Assembly: GCA_002686885.1 (NCBI GenBank)
Contig: NYYT01000133.1
Span: forward strand, 1-45,374
From: Pedosphaera sp.
GTDB lineage: Bacteria; Verrucomicrobiota; Verrucomicrobiia; Limisphaerales; AAA164-E04
DNA: 45,374 bases
Reading direction: 5' to 3'
Below the pieces are notes generated by a model. That model made no database searches. It had not been told where the DNA came from and saw only the letters and a list, made by a program, of their open reading frames with translations. This document shows, piece after piece, positions 25,760-33,767 of the stretch (positions within the stretch are counted from its first letter, which is position 1; each line of letters starts with the position of its first letter). The position numbers were made by a program, and so were the translations under genes.

Positions 25760-28618
25760 TCAGTCGTCACAATGAAGGATTTGGCCTTCGTGAAGTTTTT
25801 CCAGAGCCCTCTGAAAGAACAAAGCTTCGGCATCGGGGGATGCATCCGATGGTTTTTCATGGTCTGGATTTTTTGCCTGTTGGATCAAGGCAGCTTTCTC
25901 TCTAGCCTGTCTGGCCACCCGCTCCCTGTCCTGGTAGCGATCAAAGAATTTGACCCCTTCAATCCAGGTCTCCAAGCAGGTGGTGCGTGTGTCCAGGGGC
26001 GAAGCTGACCACAGGGCAAAATCGGCATGCTTTCCCACCTCCAGAGATCCGACCCAAGAATCGATGCGCAATTGTTGTGCAGGGTAGAGGGTGACAAAGT
26101 TCAACGCCTCTTCCGGGGGAGTGTTCCCGTATTTCACAGCTTTGGCTGCCTCGAGATACATGCGCCTGGCCAGATCACTGTCATCCGAATTGAAGGAAAC
26201 CAAAGCGCCTCGCTCATGCATCAAGCTTCCTGCGTAGGGGATGGCATCGATGACCTCAAACTTGTAAGCCCACCAATCAGAAAAACAGGAAGCGCCTGCA
26301 CCATGTGCCGCGATTTCATCAGCCACCTTGTATCCTTCCAGAGCGTGCTGGAGGGTGCCTACCTGAATGCCAAACTGTTCCATCACCCTTAGAAAAACCA
26401 GAATCTCATCTTGTCGGTAGGAGTGGCAATGGATCCAGCGGCGCCCATCCAGGATTTCGACCAGCGTTTCCAGCTCAAGGTCAGTGCGAGGGCGGGGCCC
26501 CTTTCCTTCTCTGAAAGCTTGCCAATCCTGCTGGTAAGTCCGTGCTGCCGTGAAACGGTTTTCATAGAAAACAGGGACTCCCATGCGCGACTGAGGAAAG
26601 CGAGTGGTGCGTTCATCACCCCAATTGGATTGTTTGACGTTTTCTCCCAGCGCGAACTTGATCCCAGCCGGTGCCTCGCGGAACAACAATCCATCCGGAT
26701 CCGCACCCCAACGAAGCTTGATGACCGCATTTTGTCCTCCTATCGGATTGGCGGAACCATGCAAAAGATTGGCGACGGTCAGTCCTCCAGCGAGCTGGTA
26801 GTAGATGTGATCGGTTTCGGAATTAACCACGTCTGCCACCCGCACCATGGCAGTGGAAGGCATGGTGCCTTCATTGACGCCACCCATGATCATGCTGTGG
26901 GAATGGGCATCGATGAGCCCGGGTGTCAGATGCTTGCCGTGGGCGTCAATGACCAGACAGCTTCCAAGATCTCCCTCAGGTAAACTCAGTCCTCGTCCAA
27001 CCTTCACGATATGACCATGCTGAACCAATAAGTCGGCCTCCTCCATGATGCCCATTGGACCACACGTCCAAAGGGTAGCCCCTCGGATGAGTAGGGTATC
27101 CGGACCTTGGCGCGCTGGGCGATCTTCATCGGGGAATCGAGCGATACGCTGATAGATTTGAGTTGCCTGTGAGTTGTCGTCCCCCGTGTCGGCATTTTTT
27201 GAGTCGGATTCTGATGCCTCTTCCTTTGGTGCTTTGTCATCTGAATGGGGATAACGACGACCTTGGACCCAGGTTTCGCGGATGGGCGATTGCGGGTCGA
27301 AGTAATCCCCTTCGACCACGCAGAGATTAGCCAATTTCCCGGGAGTCAGGGTGCCCATTTGATCGGAAAGATCGCACATTTCGGCCGGCACGGTGGTCAT
27401 GCCTGCCAAGGCCGCCTGGGGGCTCAGTCCACGATCAATGGCCTGTCGGAGATGTTTTCGAAACGCCTTGTGATCGCTCAAGCCATGGAGGCTTAGCGCG
27501 ATGCGTTGACCCATGTCATTGAGCCATGCAGGGATTTCGGGTGCCCAATCCCACTGGCGGAGGAGATCCAGCTCCACGGCTTCCCAATCCGCTTCTTCAT
27601 CAAGTTGAGGGGCTTGTGGAAAGCGCATTGGAACAATCCAGGCCGTATCAATTCCGGACACCAGGTCGGGCCGTCTCCATTCCTGACCGCTGGCCACCAG
27701 GATGGGACGGATGCCGAAGGCGTTCGCAATTTGATGGGTTCGGCTTGCCATGAGCACACTGCCTGGCTCGATGAGAAGTCGCGTTTGCCCTGAAAGCACG
27801 GGCAGCAAGGCCTCGAGTGATGGGTCGTATTCGAGCTTGCCCGTTTGCTGGGTTGAGTATTGGGCATTGAGGAGGGTTTGCCGCATCAGGCTCAGGGCCC
27901 CCATGAGCGAGCGTGGGAATTCATCTGCTTGGCTCGAGCGGGTTGTCAAGGCCAGGTGCTGCATCATGAGAGGTTGGACAAGCAAGCGGTTGGGGGAATC
28001 GTTGCCAGTCAGTGAAACAGCCCCACGACCTCGCCAGATTCCCTTTGAAGGGCTGAGCTGCACGGCAGTAAACCCCATTTCCCTCCATTTTTTGCGTTCA
28101 TCGCTTTCAAAGTCCCAGTGGTCGACCACCCGGTAATCTGATCGTACCGTGTGGTAACTGCCTCCGGGGCCCTTTTCGCCTGGATCTTCCTCATCCCCGG
28201 TCATTCCAAAGAAATGCCACGCTCCAGTTGCACGATGCGTGGCATCCTCTTCCGCATGAGTGCGCGTGACTTGAGGCTTCTCTCCTCCGGTTGTCGTCAA
28301 GACGTATGGATCAATGAAGCCGGGATACAGTGTGGTGCCGGTCATGTCCCAGACTCTCGCCCCCGTTGGAGGCGTGAGGTCTTCTTCCACGCGCACGATG
28401 GTGTCCCCTTCGATAATCAACATCGCATTGGTCAAGGTCAGGGAAGGGGAGACGATGATGTTGCCACCCCTCAGGGCGTGGAGTCCGAGAGGCCTGGGTT
28501 CATAGCCTGGAGGTAGTAGGTCTGGCGATGATGCGGCAGCTCCGCTCAGAACCAGCCAAACCATACTCCAGGAGGCCATCGCGAGGAGAGGTTGAGATTT
28601 GAGGAATGTCTTCTGCAT
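25760..28618 (-). CDS. Secreted double amidohydrolase, N-half degenerate
   Basis: ATG 28618 gives 952 residues with a signal peptide (LLAMASWSMVWLVLSGAAAS). Two amidohydrolase units follow one another. In the first (about residues 50-455) the barrel starts YPGFIDPYVL, lacking HxH, and it ends with GTLTPGKLANLCVVEGD. A charged linker (about 460-500) leads to the second unit, which has an intact PGLIDAHSHS (His572, His574), WIHCHSYRQDE, LQHALEGY and SFNSDDSD, so all metal-site elements are present. It ends with VGSLEVGKHADFALW. Only the C-terminal half should be catalytic, cutting amide or related bonds outside the cytoplasm; the substrate is unknown. It is first in a two-gene operon. Confidence 0.85.
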   Translation of the reverse strand: MQKTFLKSQPLLAMASWSMVWLVLSGAAASSPDLLPPGYEPRPLGLHALRGGNIIVSPSLTLTNAMLIIEGDTIVRVEEDLTPPTGARVWDMTGTTLYPGFIDPYVLTTTGGEKPQVTRTHAEEDATHRATGAWHFFGMTGDEEDPGEKGPGGSYHTVRSDYRVVDHWDFESDERKKWREMGFTAVQLSPSKGIWRGRGAVSLTGNDSPNRLLVQPLMMQHLALTTRSSQADEFPRSLMGALSLMRQTLLNAQYSTQQTGKLEYDPSLEALLPVLSGQTRLLIEPGSVLMASRTHQIANAFGIRPILVASGQEWRRPDLVSGIDTAWIVPMRFPQAPQLDEEADWEAVELDLLRQWDWAPEIPAWLNDMGQRIALSLHGLSDHKAFRKHLRQAIDRGLSPQAALAGMTTVPAEMCDLSDQMGTLTPGKLANLCVVEGDYFDPQSPIRETWVQGRRYPHSDDKAPKEEASESDSKNADTGDDNSQATQIYQRIARFPDEDRPARQGPDTLLIRGATLWTCGPMGIMEEADLLVQHGHIVKVGRGLSLPEGDLGSCLVIDAHGKHLTPGLIDAHSHSMIMGGVNEGTMPSTAMVRVADVVNSETDHIYYQLAGGLTVANLLHGSANPIGGQNAVIKLRWGADPDGLLFREAPAGIKFALGENVKQSNWGDERTTRFPQSRMGVPVFYENRFTAARTYQQDWQAFREGKGPRPRTDLELETLVEILDGRRWIHCHSYRQDEILVFLRVMEQFGIQVGTLQHALEGYKVADEIAAHGAGASCFSDWWAYKFEVIDAIPYAGSLMHERGALVSFNSDDSDLARRMYLEAAKAVKYGNTPPEEALNFVTLYPAQQLRIDSWVGSLEVGKHADFALWSASPLDTRTTCLETWIEGVKFFDRYQDRERVARQAREKAALIQQAKNPDHEKPSDASPDAEALFFQRALEKLHEGQILHCDD

Positions 28619-28718
28619 GGTTTGTTGAAGTGAATGGCCGATTCTAGGGACTAAGGCATTCAAGAACCAATCATTTTAGTACCCTTGGGCGAGGGACATG
28701 CCTAGCTATGAGAAGGCT

Positions 28719-29329: not shown

Positions 29330-32278
29330 TCACCTTCCAGATGTGAGGCCGAACCATTCTTGGTAAATGGAATCAATCTGAAACCCATCGACTCCCTGCC
29401 GGATGAGTGCCTTGATATCTGCCTCCGCTTCCTCATGGTGCCGGTTTGCTGGATAGCGGAAAGTATTGATGGCTGGAAGGACCAACACACCGGCAGCTTG
29501 AAGCTTTTGAATGTCACCGGCTTGAAGTTGGCTGGGTAGACCAAACCAGAAACGGTCGGAAAGCTCCATTCGATCGCCTTGCCTGAGAGCCTTCAATTCA
29601 TCAGCGGTCAGCGTGAATCGGGTGTGCCTGAGATGGCGACGGGTGGCGGGTTCCCCAGTGATGCACAATGAGGCATCCGCCAGTCCATGTCTCACCAGGC
29701 TCTCTCCAATGGTGTGGAGAAACCCTGGGTCCTCCTGGTGAGTCTTCAGGTCGAGCATCACCCCTAGTCCCAGAGACTGGCAGGCGTTCAGTGCTGTCTC
29801 GAGAGTGATGAGCGGTTGATCTCCTATCAGGCTACGCATCGATGTCAATTGTTTGGCAGTCCAATCGATGATCTTCCCTTCACGCCCACAGGCCTTCACC
29901 AAGTCGTGGTCATGGAACACGATCGGGACGCCGTCTTTGCTTTGCTGGAGATCGAGCTCGACCATGTCGTATCCTTCCCGTGCCGCTCGCTCAATGGCCG
30001 TGAGTGAGCCTTCAGGGGAGTCCGAGGTGATCACACCTCCACGATGGGCAATGAGAAAGGGGGTGGCTCGCAAGCCACGGTGTCCTTGGCGAAAATCTGG
30101 AAGTCTTCTGGAAGCCGCTTTTTTCTCAGAGACCCACTGGGCTGCCTCAAAGATGAGCATGGCGGCTTGTCCCCGAGTCAATGAAAGAGATTTCGGTAAC
30201 GACGACGGCCAGGCAAACTCTTCATGTAATAAACCTTTGAGGATTTTTAAGGCTTGAGCATGGCTCACAGGGTTTTCAGGGCGAGCCAGGAGTTCGGTGC
30301 GCGAGTTGGAACCCTCCTTGGAGGCATGTGTGTCGAACGGGAAGAAGGGTTTCGTGGACTGGGAGGAAAGGTCATAAAGGGTCTCGATGTAGGGAAAGGC
30401 CTGGTGTCCTCGCCGCACATCCTGGAAGTGGGCTGCCGTGATGCTCCAGGGTATCTCTAAACCCTCTAGGGCCATTTGGGCAAACGCCCCCATGGTGACT
30501 GGGGCATCGGGTCGAAACCGGTAGGCCTCAAAGTCCAAATCACTGAGGGTATTGGCGGTGCTTTTCAATGGGAATTGTTCGATGGTACGATCGTCCATGG
30601 CGCCTTTCAGGCTGAGGAGTTGCACGGCCTCAAAGCATGGTGCCTCGGCGGCTAAGTCGGTGTAGAAATAGAGTTGGCAACCCTGGCGCACGAGCTCTTG
30701 CTGAATGCTGGCGGTGGGTACTTCGGCGAGTTCGACGCCTTGATCCATGCTCAAGGCGGCTGCGACTCCAGCGGCTTGACCGAGAGCCGCCCAAACGGGT
30801 TCCATGCGTACCGTGCACATGGCCACATGCGTGCTGGAGATGCCGATGGGGAACAAGATACCCTGATGGCTTTTGGGGACCATGACACCGTAGGGGATTT
30901 GGTAAGGGCCTGTCACATCAAACAAATGCAAGGTGCCTTCAGCCGCCCCTTCACCGCTCGGGGGCTCCGGCGAACGTGTTGGGCCTTGAACGTTGTGGGC
31001 ATCGATGCCGTATACTCCAATGGCTACTGAATTTGCGTTTAAGGGGCCCCTGAGACCATTGCCGCGCAGATCCTTGTGAATATCACTCTCGTTGAGGGTT
31101 TCATGGCCCTCGATGCGTCTGCCTTGACGTACGTAAAGTCGGTAGGGAAGGTGGTCATTATCGGTAAACTCATCGTCGGGTAATCCAATCTGTGGCGACT
31201 GACCTTCGGTTTGGATGTAGTAAAGCCACCCCAAATCATATTGGCGGAAGATGGACTCCAGTTCCTTGCGTTCCTCCCAATCAGCCAAGACCCACCGGGT
31301 TCCATGACCCGTGAGATCTCCACCCCAACTGATGCCAAGCAGATCAAACTTGCGATTGGGGATGATGGGCTTTGTGTTTCGATTCCAACGATACAAACTG
31401 GGGTCATACCCTGGGGGTGGCTCCTGGATACGAAAAGGGTGATCTGGGCGGCCGTAATCCTTTCCGGTCAATCGATAGGTGAAAGCCTGGCTGCGGTGAT
31501 CGGGTTCCCCAGTGCTATGTGGAAGAATGGTGTTGGAGGGAACGCCAGCCACATGGCGAAAATAATTTGTGTAGATCCTTCCAGCATGAGGCTCTTCCGG
31601 GGAGCGGGCCTCTCGCCCAATGCGGTAAGGTATCTTGGCAAAGGCTGCCAGATCTCCTTCATAGGTGGCATCGATGATCACTTTGGCACGGTAGGTATGC
31701 TGCTGGCCAAGGTTTCCTTGATTGTCTCGATCTCGGGTGACCACTCCGACGACCCTGTGTCCTTCCATAATGACATCGACAGCGACTTGCTGGAACAAAG
31801 TAGAGATGGATGGGTGTTCACCCACCATTTCACTGTAAATGCGAGCGGCGGTGTGAGGCTCCCATGCTCTGCCTTCGGCAATATTCCACGGACGGTTGGC
31901 GGGCAGGTTCCTATGGGCCTTCACCAGGGGGTCGGAAGCAAGCTCGGTTCGATGATAATCTCTGACTCGCCGACGGAAGGATTCCATGACACCGCTGTTG
32001 GAGGCTGCATACAAATCGTCCATGCGGATGACTCCAGAGGAATGGACGCCTCCCAAAACCGGTGATTGTTCGATGATCAGTATGTCTTTTCCCAATGTGG
32101 CCGCACCAATGGCCGCTGCAATGCCTGCTGGTGTGCCCCCGATGACCAGCAGGTCCACTGCGGCATGGGGCTGGATTGTTGGTTCATCGCCTTGAGCCGT
32201 GTGAAAACAAAGACCTGCAACGATCGATTGAAGAAGGGCGACCAAAGGTAATTTTGAAACGTGGTTCGGGATACCCAT
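29330..32278 (-). CDS. Secreted FAD oxidoreductase - SLH-like - GDPD fusion protein
   Basis: ATG 32278 gives 982 residues with a signal peptide (LPLVALLQSIVAGLC); the frame is open to 32431. Residues about 40-545 form an FAD-dependent oxidoreductase (FAD_oxidored family): LLVIGGTPAGIAAAIGAA binds the dinucleotide, with VIIDATYEGDLAA and the C-terminal VWAALGQAAGVAAA. Residues about 547-742 (encoded about 30053-30640) carry SLH-like elements, FRPDAPVTMGAFAQMAL, HFQDVRRGHQAFPYI and SLTRGQAAMLI. Residues about 743-982 form a glycerophosphodiester phosphodiesterase domain: IAHRGGV, MVELDLQ and FHDHDL supply the His and acidic metal residues, ending GVDGFQIDS. It is divergent from the pectate-lyase-like gene (160-base gap). 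Confidence 0.85.
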   Translation of the reverse strand: MGIPNHVSKLPLVALLQSIVAGLCFHTAQGDEPTIQPHAAVDLLVIGGTPAGIAAAIGAATLGKDILIIEQSPVLGGVHSSGVIRMDDLYAASNSGVMESFRRRVRDYHRTELASDPLVKAHRNLPANRPWNIAEGRAWEPHTAARIYSEMVGEHPSISTLFQQVAVDVIMEGHRVVGVVTRDRDNQGNLGQQHTYRAKVIIDATYEGDLAAFAKIPYRIGREARSPEEPHAGRIYTNYFRHVAGVPSNTILPHSTGEPDHRSQAFTYRLTGKDYGRPDHPFRIQEPPPGYDPSLYRWNRNTKPIIPNRKFDLLGISWGGDLTGHGTRWVLADWEERKELESIFRQYDLGWLYYIQTEGQSPQIGLPDDEFTDNDHLPYRLYVRQGRRIEGHETLNESDIHKDLRGNGLRGPLNANSVAIGVYGIDAHNVQGPTRSPEPPSGEGAAEGTLHLFDVTGPYQIPYGVMVPKSHQGILFPIGISSTHVAMCTVRMEPVWAALGQAAGVAAALSMDQGVELAEVPTASIQQELVRQGCQLYFYTDLAAEAPCFEAVQLLSLKGAMDDRTIEQFPLKSTANTLSDLDFEAYRFRPDAPVTMGAFAQMALEGLEIPWSITAAHFQDVRRGHQAFPYIETLYDLSSQSTKPFFPFDTHASKEGSNSRTELLARPENPVSHAQALKILKGLLHEEFAWPSSLPKSLSLTRGQAAMLIFEAAQWVSEKKAASRRLPDFRQGHRGLRATPFLIAHRGGVITSDSPEGSLTAIERAAREGYDMVELDLQQSKDGVPIVFHDHDLVKACGREGKIIDWTAKQLTSMRSLIGDQPLITLETALNACQSLGLGVMLDLKTHQEDPGFLHTIGESLVRHGLADASLCITGEPATRRHLRHTRFTLTADELKALRQGDRMELSDRFWFGLPSQLQAGDIQKLQAAGVLVLPAINTFRYPANRHHEEAEADIKALIRQGVDGFQIDSIYQEWFGLTSGR

Positions 32279-32438
32279 CTGTGCAGGATGGCCTCCTGCT
32301 TTGAATCTGGCAATACTGGGTCGTGTCTTCTCCTCTTTTAGTCGCCTGTAAGATCCGATGGGCGCGTTTTGAGTTGGAGATGCTTCTGTTTTTCCCTTAG
32401 AAGAATAGTCAGTATTCAAAGCAGCCCACACCTATTGT
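32279..32438. promoter_or_regulatory. Divergent promoter region for the fusion gene and the sulfatase cluster
   Basis: This 160-base gap separates the starts of two divergent genes and must hold promoters for both unless transcription begins further away. TTGGAG near 32373 followed after 17 bases by TTAGAA is the best plus-strand candidate, but it is weak. No operator repeat is evident. Confidence 0.35.
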
Positions 32439-33767
32439 ATGAGATTTAATCTGATTGTCTGTCTGTGTTTCTTAGCGTTGAGTTGCCTCGGCCAAGCTGC
32501 CGAACCGATACTGGCTTTTCCTACTGCCGAGGGCTTCGGTCGTCATGCAGAGGGAGGGAGGGGAGGGAAGGTCCTTTTTGTGACCCATCTGAGGGATCAT
32601 GGGCCCGGTAGTTTGCGGGCAGCTATCGAGGATCCAGAACCGAGAATTGTGATTTTCCGAGTGGGAGGGACCATTGAATTGGAGTCTCCTTTGCGAATCA
32701 CACATCCCTACATCACCATTGCTGGACAGACGGCACCGGGAGATGGAATTTGTCTGCGCAAATACCCTTTAATGATTTCTGCGGACCACAGTGTGATTCG
32801 CTTTCTGAGGGTTCGACTGGGGGATGAAGCAGGGAAACTGATGGATGGGATGGATATCTCTCATGCCAGCCATGTCATCGTGGATCATTGTTCAGTCAGT
32901 TGGACGTTGGACGAAGGGGTCAATACCTATCACGGCACGCATTATGCCACCATTCAGTGGTGCTTGATCTCCGAATCCCTGGATGATTCCCCTTTGCGCA
33001 ATGGCCATGGTTTTGCGGCCTCATTGGGAGGTCAGCATACTTCTTATCACCACAATCTTTTCGCCAACAATGCGGGTCGTAACCCAAGCATTGCGGGCGA
33101 AACGCGTGACCCAACCGTGGCGCTTGATTTTCGCAACAATGCCATATTCAACTGGAAAAAAAGGCGACTCGATGGGCGGCCTGAAAGCATCAATGTCATC
33201 AACAACTACTACAAGGCGGGGCCGGCATCCGAACAACTCCAGAACATCGTCAAAATGCAGTGCCTGGATAATGGTGAGTTTGGAAGATGGTATGTATCCG
33301 GTAATGTGCTTGATCGGTATGGAGCGTTGATCCGGGGTGAAGAGCTTGTCATCATTGATGATCCTGACCATGTGCCTTCCTTTGCCCTGGCTGAACAGCC
33401 CTTGGAGGTGGCCCCGGTTCGAACCGAACCCGCTGAGGTGGCTTTTGAAAAGATACTCAAACGCGCTGGAGCCATTCGACCTGCCCGAGATTCTCACGAT
33501 GCACGTATTGTTCGAGAGGCGCTTAGTGGCAAGACCACTTTTGGTAATGGTATCATCTCTTCACAATCTCAGGTCGGCGGATGGCCTGAGTTGCGTGGAG
33601 GCCAAGCACTGATGGATGCCGACCTGGATGGGATGCCGGATGCATGGGAGCGGCGGTTCAGTCCAAACCGGGGTCTGGAGATGAATGCCTGCGACGATCT
33701 GGATGGAGATGGGTATACCAATCTGGAAGAATACCTCAATCAGACCCATCCCAATCAAAAGGGATGA
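32439..33767 (+). CDS. Secreted pectate-lyase-like polysaccharide lyase
   Basis: This 442-residue protein has a strong signal peptide (IVCLCFLALSCLGQAAE). It is a right-handed beta-helix of the pectate lyase (PL1-like) group: AFPTAEGFGRHAEGGRGG, then GSLRAAIEDPEPRIVIF, VDHCSVSWTLDEGVN and the Arg in NAGRNPSIAGE at the expected catalytic position. The last 45 residues hold a calcium-loop pair, DADLDGMPDAWE and DDLDGDGYTNLEEYL, like thrombospondin type 3 or dockerin loops. Such enzymes cut acidic polysaccharides by beta-elimination outside the cytoplasm. It is the first gene of the plus-strand polysaccharide cluster. Confidence 0.88.
   Translation: MRFNLIVCLCFLALSCLGQAAEPILAFPTAEGFGRHAEGGRGGKVLFVTHLRDHGPGSLRAAIEDPEPRIVIFRVGGTIELESPLRITHPYITIAGQTAPGDGICLRKYPLMISADHSVIRFLRVRLGDEAGKLMDGMDISHASHVIVDHCSVSWTLDEGVNTYHGTHYATIQWCLISESLDDSPLRNGHGFAASLGGQHTSYHHNLFANNAGRNPSIAGETRDPTVALDFRNNAIFNWKKRRLDGRPESINVINNYYKAGPASEQLQNIVKMQCLDNGEFGRWYVSGNVLDRYGALIRGEELVIIDDPDHVPSFALAEQPLEVAPVRTEPAEVAFEKILKRAGAIRPARDSHDARIVREALSGKTTFGNGIISSQSQVGGWPELRGGQALMDADLDGMPDAWERRFSPNRGLEMNACDDLDGDGYTNLEEYLNQTHPNQKG

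Follow-up and report, generated by a model that had tools for sequence, protein, structure and literature searches.

Architecture and genomic setting of the fusion gene

The window, by which we mean the whole stretch of 45,374 nucleotides analyzed from Pedosphaera sp., contained a minus-strand gene encoding a signal peptide, a FAD_oxidored domain, an SLH-like segment, and a glycerophosphodiester phosphodiesterase (GDPD) domain (Table 1). Its frame ran uninterrupted from position 32431 down to the stop at 29330, corresponding to 1033 codons; the length of 982 aa is counted from position 32278, the start chosen in a preliminary description of this DNA. Reading of the frame and Pfam searches bore out that description of one uninterrupted frame holding all four features, and the domain search that it had proposed recovered both PF12831 (286 bits; curated cut-off, 27) over the full model length at residues 93–580 of the 1033-codon frame and PF03009 (67 bits; curated cut-off, 23.6) from residue 796. 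The FAD_oxidored, SLH-like, and GDPD parts are all real components of the protein, far beyond chance, the SLH-like part on the strength of its orthologues. The hydrophobic 12-mer of the signal peptide had a mean hydropathy of 2.25, and a nucleotide-binding motif (VIGGTPAGIAAA) was visible by eye in the FAD_oxidored part, which is predicted to be an FAD-binding oxidoreductase.

Table 1. Positions of the fusion gene, its parts, and the neighboring genes in the window
Feature	Position	Strand	Remarks
Fusion gene (signal peptide, FAD_oxidored, SLH-like segment, GDPD)	29330..32278	-	982 aa
Signal peptide, about residues 1–30 of 982	32189..32278	-	Hydrophobic 12-mer LVALLQSIVAGL; predicted cleavage position
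FAD_oxidored domain, PF12831	30692..32155	-	E 7e-85; model positions 1–416 of 416
C-terminal SLH-like part of the FAD enzyme, with about 2.5 degenerate repeats	30143..30679	-	PF00395 matches of orthologous segments
Junction	30047..30142	-	FAD enzyme tail AAQWVSEKKAASRR, then mature GDPD N-terminus LPDFRQGHRGLRATPF, without an intervening signal peptide
GDPD domain, PF03009, catalytic HRG, ELD, HDH	29351..30046	-	E 3e-18; 43–55% identity to secreted GDPDs of the order
Divergent neighbor, pectate-lyase-like secreted protein	32439..33767	+	Assigned by eye, no Pfam match; 64% identity in G001
Four sulfatase genes, PF00884	33792..39891	+	Beyond the pectate-lyase-like gene

The catalytic histidines and metal ligands of GDPDs (HRG, PE, E.D, and HD) were all present in the fusion protein. 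In an alignment of eight members of its GDPD family, these letters were invariant except for the PE glutamate, which was Q in one row. The domain had been called complete with its HRG, ELD, and HDH residues; this held for the residues, and the best Pfam stretch covered 111 of the 244 PF03009 positions, the remainder aligning solely within the narrow family.

The divergent order of the FAD gene and the pectate-lyase-like gene was kept in a genome of the same genus (G001; locus L030). The sulfatases were absent beside the FAD orthologue of that genome, and efflux-type genes stood in their place. Elsewhere, sulfatases adjoined FAD-SLH genes in three genomes (G045, at the second copy, G175, and G170) and lay within several kb of the GDPD gene in five (G002, G004, G006, G010, and G045). 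The question raised earlier, whether the architecture travels with sulfatase genes, is thus answered by a partial linkage: it recurs next to FAD-SLH in the three genomes named but is missing in G001, and the window's genome has about 80 sulfatase genes in any case. The case for the suggested joint control of the fusion gene and the sulfatases is weak, although such control is possible. The window's genome (G000; 4.27 Mb) is very sulfatase-rich, with 83 sulfatase matches, or about one per 50 kb. A further minus-strand gene (25760–28663) encodes a protein of 967 aa with several stretches matching PF07969 and PF01979, which appears to contain two amidohydrolase units in tandem.

The junction and the unfused state in relatives

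Elsewhere in the order, the two halves of the protein were encoded by separate genes. The stand-alone FAD-SLH genes had about 700–741 codons and their own stop, and their products terminated just past the motif LTRGEAAQLI. The GDPD formed a separate secreted gene of about 278–317 codons with its own signal peptide, which in G166 was of the lipoprotein type. In these relatives, FAD-SLH and GDPD were found on different contigs; the window was the one place where a single contig carried both. The comparison indicates that FAD-SLH is an old stand-alone exported unit and that the GDPD alone is the new addition. The preliminary description had spoken of a protein that joins three parts; the fusion is real, but it is a join of two units rather than a three-way join.

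The FAD tail in the window continued into LPDFRQGHRGLRATPFLIAHRGG, which in the alignment matched the N-terminus of the mature stand-alone proteins of the GDPD family (IDLTDRADLTTRSPILIAHRGG), and the join directly preceded the mature GDPD start (IDLxD..LxxR.PILIAHRGG). A GDPD signal peptide was found at the junction in none of the three frames, which speaks against two intact genes separated by an overlooked stop or a frameshift.

The exact FAD-SLH-GDPD join occurred in one of 320 genomes of the order, that of the window, which is a draft of 140 contigs with 6.7% contamination. No second copy of the fusion was found in a class-wide draw of 384 genomes or a phylum-wide draw of 388, both of which are weak negatives that left out most of the family's drafts. 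The restriction to one draft, probably metagenome-derived, genome and the unfused state as the rule in relatives would suit an assembly or sequencing artefact. We regard such an origin as highly improbable, in that the join was in frame and lay exactly at the mature end of a GDPD deprived of its signal peptide. Moreover, no repeat liable to cause misassembly was found at the junction, the sequence contained no N, and the two halves matched each other and the neighboring genes in codon usage and G+C content. In G001, the FAD gene was 88% identical, and its contig ended at residue 471, inside the FAD part; neither the rest of this gene nor a close GDPD was found elsewhere in that genome. Their joint absence is what would be expected of adjacent sequences, and the gap fits FAD and GDPD being adjacent there too, without proving it. 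The in-frame join and the unfused state in relatives thus uphold a genuine fusion of two units. As to its novelty, the earlier remark that no such protein was known to be described agreed with our literature search, which found no description of this architecture in a body of papers that included few subscription titles. The domain arrangement is new; its parts are known.

The SLH-like segment and the spread of the FAD gene

The SLH-like repeats had been proposed as a possible anchor to the wall or surface. Their resemblance to SLH domains was confirmed at the level of the family, as all ten orthologous segments matched PF00395 (best E value, 4.7e-9) and several orthologues exceeded the cut-off. 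It was weak for the window protein alone, which gave no SLH match as a whole and 20.0 bits (cut-off, 20.8) as an isolated segment (30143–30676). By eye on the alignment, the segment comprised about 2.5 degenerate repeats, and three intact repeats were absent. A profile search of the segment against solved structures returned no match.

The segment was present in every FAD orthologue long enough to reach that region. It was also recognizable in FAD homologues of Bosea and Streptomyces, which were 35–38% identical, began directly at the nucleotide-binding fold without a signal peptide, and lay amid catabolic genes: the Bosea gene adjoined a sodium-solute symporter gene and one encoding a beta-keto acid cleavage enzyme, and the Streptomyces gene adjoined an aldehyde dehydrogenase gene. 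A structure predicted from the window, Bosea, and Streptomyces sequences had a pLDDT of 34.5 and was discarded. Export of the window protein and its orthologues, as predicted from their signal peptides, and the uniform PF00395 matches would both be in keeping with repeats that attach the protein to the wall or the surface of the cell. Nevertheless, we consider such anchoring very unlikely, because homologues without a signal peptide retain the segment, which gives it the look of an enzyme part; its degenerate, incomplete repeats and its profile, which matches no solved SLH structure, point the same way. The segment is probably an ordinary part of the FAD enzyme, and the anchoring role first proposed for it was not supported. 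SLH-like repeats in FAD_oxidored flavoenzymes are thus not by themselves a sign of surface anchoring, a tempting misreading that is corrected here.

The homologues of Bosea and Streptomyces were the sole matches in a scan of named genomes. A plasmid search gave matches in 98 records, the best of which were FAD homologues, and none of the 98 covered 80% of the fusion protein. Scans of viral contigs with both the FAD and the GDPD part found no relatives. Within the order, the FAD-SLH proteins of genus g2 (family f1; L062, L025, L028, and L029) clustered with that of G170 from family f2 at 84% identity, closer than to the window's own genus; the FAD-SLH gene has likely moved between the two families by horizontal transfer. 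Short pieces resembling the FAD N-terminus (55–58% identity) were present in G006 (C14:66184-66456), G004 (C6:53446-53709), and G010 (C25:102537-102809). Two of the three carried an internal stop, and they are probably what is left of a second copy of the FAD gene.

Recurrence of the GDPD domain and putative function of the fusion

Among the 320 genomes of the order, FAD-SLH was found in 11 and the GDPD family in 9, with both in 6 (Fisher 2.6e-8, a value that ignores descent and overstates independence, the co-occurrence resting on about 14 genomes that are related and show evident horizontal transfer). The shared genomes included the distant G045, and in genus g4 of family f2 both genes were present, in different species. 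Other sugar oxidases also neighbored the GDPD: in G166 there was a 4-base overlap between it and a gene whose matches were GSDH-like and to cytochrome c, and three g2 genomes had a GSDH about 5 kb from it.

In three genomes, the GDPD made up the C-terminal portion of a longer secreted protein, joined to FAD-SLH in the window, to a propeller-like domain in G002, and to an esterase-like domain in G045. The esterase-like partner existed unfused in other genomes (62% identity), and the window's own genome carried the propeller as a frame of 267 codons. An initial GDPD tree, for which a distant paralogue served as outgroup, gave no resolution. The AU test rejected a single clade of the three fused GDPDs (p 0.013, on a poorly resolved tree); therefore, separate captures are, at moderate strength, the better reading of the three fusions. 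The propeller-like secreted domain was itself combined with varied enzymes: in G045 it was joined instead to an endonuclease/exonuclease/phosphatase domain (L085:42-1664), in G015 to an acyltransferase and an M14 carboxypeptidase (L087:259-3003), and in G002 to the GDPD (L034:8351-10051).

Taken with its unfused relatives, the gene is, in our estimate with fair probability, a lineage-specific fusion encoding an exported, bifunctional enzyme for glycan degradation, in which both activities, a common substrate, and the glycan nature of that substrate are predicted on the basis of the co-occurrence, the sugar oxidases near the GDPD, and established GDPD chemistry. An old exported flavoenzyme, consisting of FAD_oxidored and its intrinsic SLH-like domain, would have gained a secreted GDPD, in its mature form, at its C-terminus; the GDPD would have lost its own signal peptide and would be exported via that of the flavoenzyme. 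In the periplasm or at the cell exterior, the flavin domain may oxidize a hydroxyl group on a sugar or on a derivative of one, and the GDPD may cut a phosphodiester bond, such as that of a glycerophosphoryl substituent, in the same glycan class.

A real fusion need not imply a shared function, as the GDPD could have been captured by chance and be carried, active or not, as a passenger on the export signal of the flavoenzyme. The occurrence of the join in a single genome and the common shuffling of modules in these genomes would agree with such an accident, and the two unrelated partners of the GDPD family elsewhere suggest promiscuous capture rather than one pathway. Against this, the GDPD has retained its catalytic residues, the frame is intact across both halves with normal codon use, and FAD-SLH and GDPD genes co-occur; we judge a chance passenger rather unlikely. 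Fusion of genes that are separate elsewhere is one of the better clues to a common function, and the bifunctional enzyme that we favor would link two enzyme families in sulfatase-rich bacteria through one protein that allows tests of both activities. More speculatively, the narrow secreted GDPD family might be a mobile C-terminal module that different exported enzymes have acquired on at least three occasions and that constitutes, with the FAD-SLH oxidase, an unrecognized two-step route of oxidation and phosphodiester cleavage that degrades phosphodiester-bearing, possibly sulfated, glycans; this wider proposal is doubtful at present.

Compared with known systems, the fusion protein resembles the stand-alone PF12831 orthologues (G004, G009, G010, G045, and G170; 64–69% identity) in the whole FAD domain, the SLH-like tail, and the export signal, whereas these end after the tail without a GDPD. 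Its C-terminal part shares a pre-domain motif and the catalytic residues with the secreted PF03009 proteins of the order (L035–L038, L040, and L064), which, unlike it, are separate genes with their own signal peptide. The propeller-GDPD protein of G002 (573-codon frame) and the esterase-like-GDPD protein of G045 (962-codon frame) carry the same GDPD family at the C-terminus of a secreted protein with the same join point, but their N-terminal partners are unrelated to the FAD enzyme. Solved bacterial GDPDs (e.g., 3qvq and 2pz0) align over the N-terminal half of the barrel with the HRG, E.D, and HD motifs; they are single-domain proteins of about 250 residues, from which the C-terminal half of the GDPD in the fusion has diverged.
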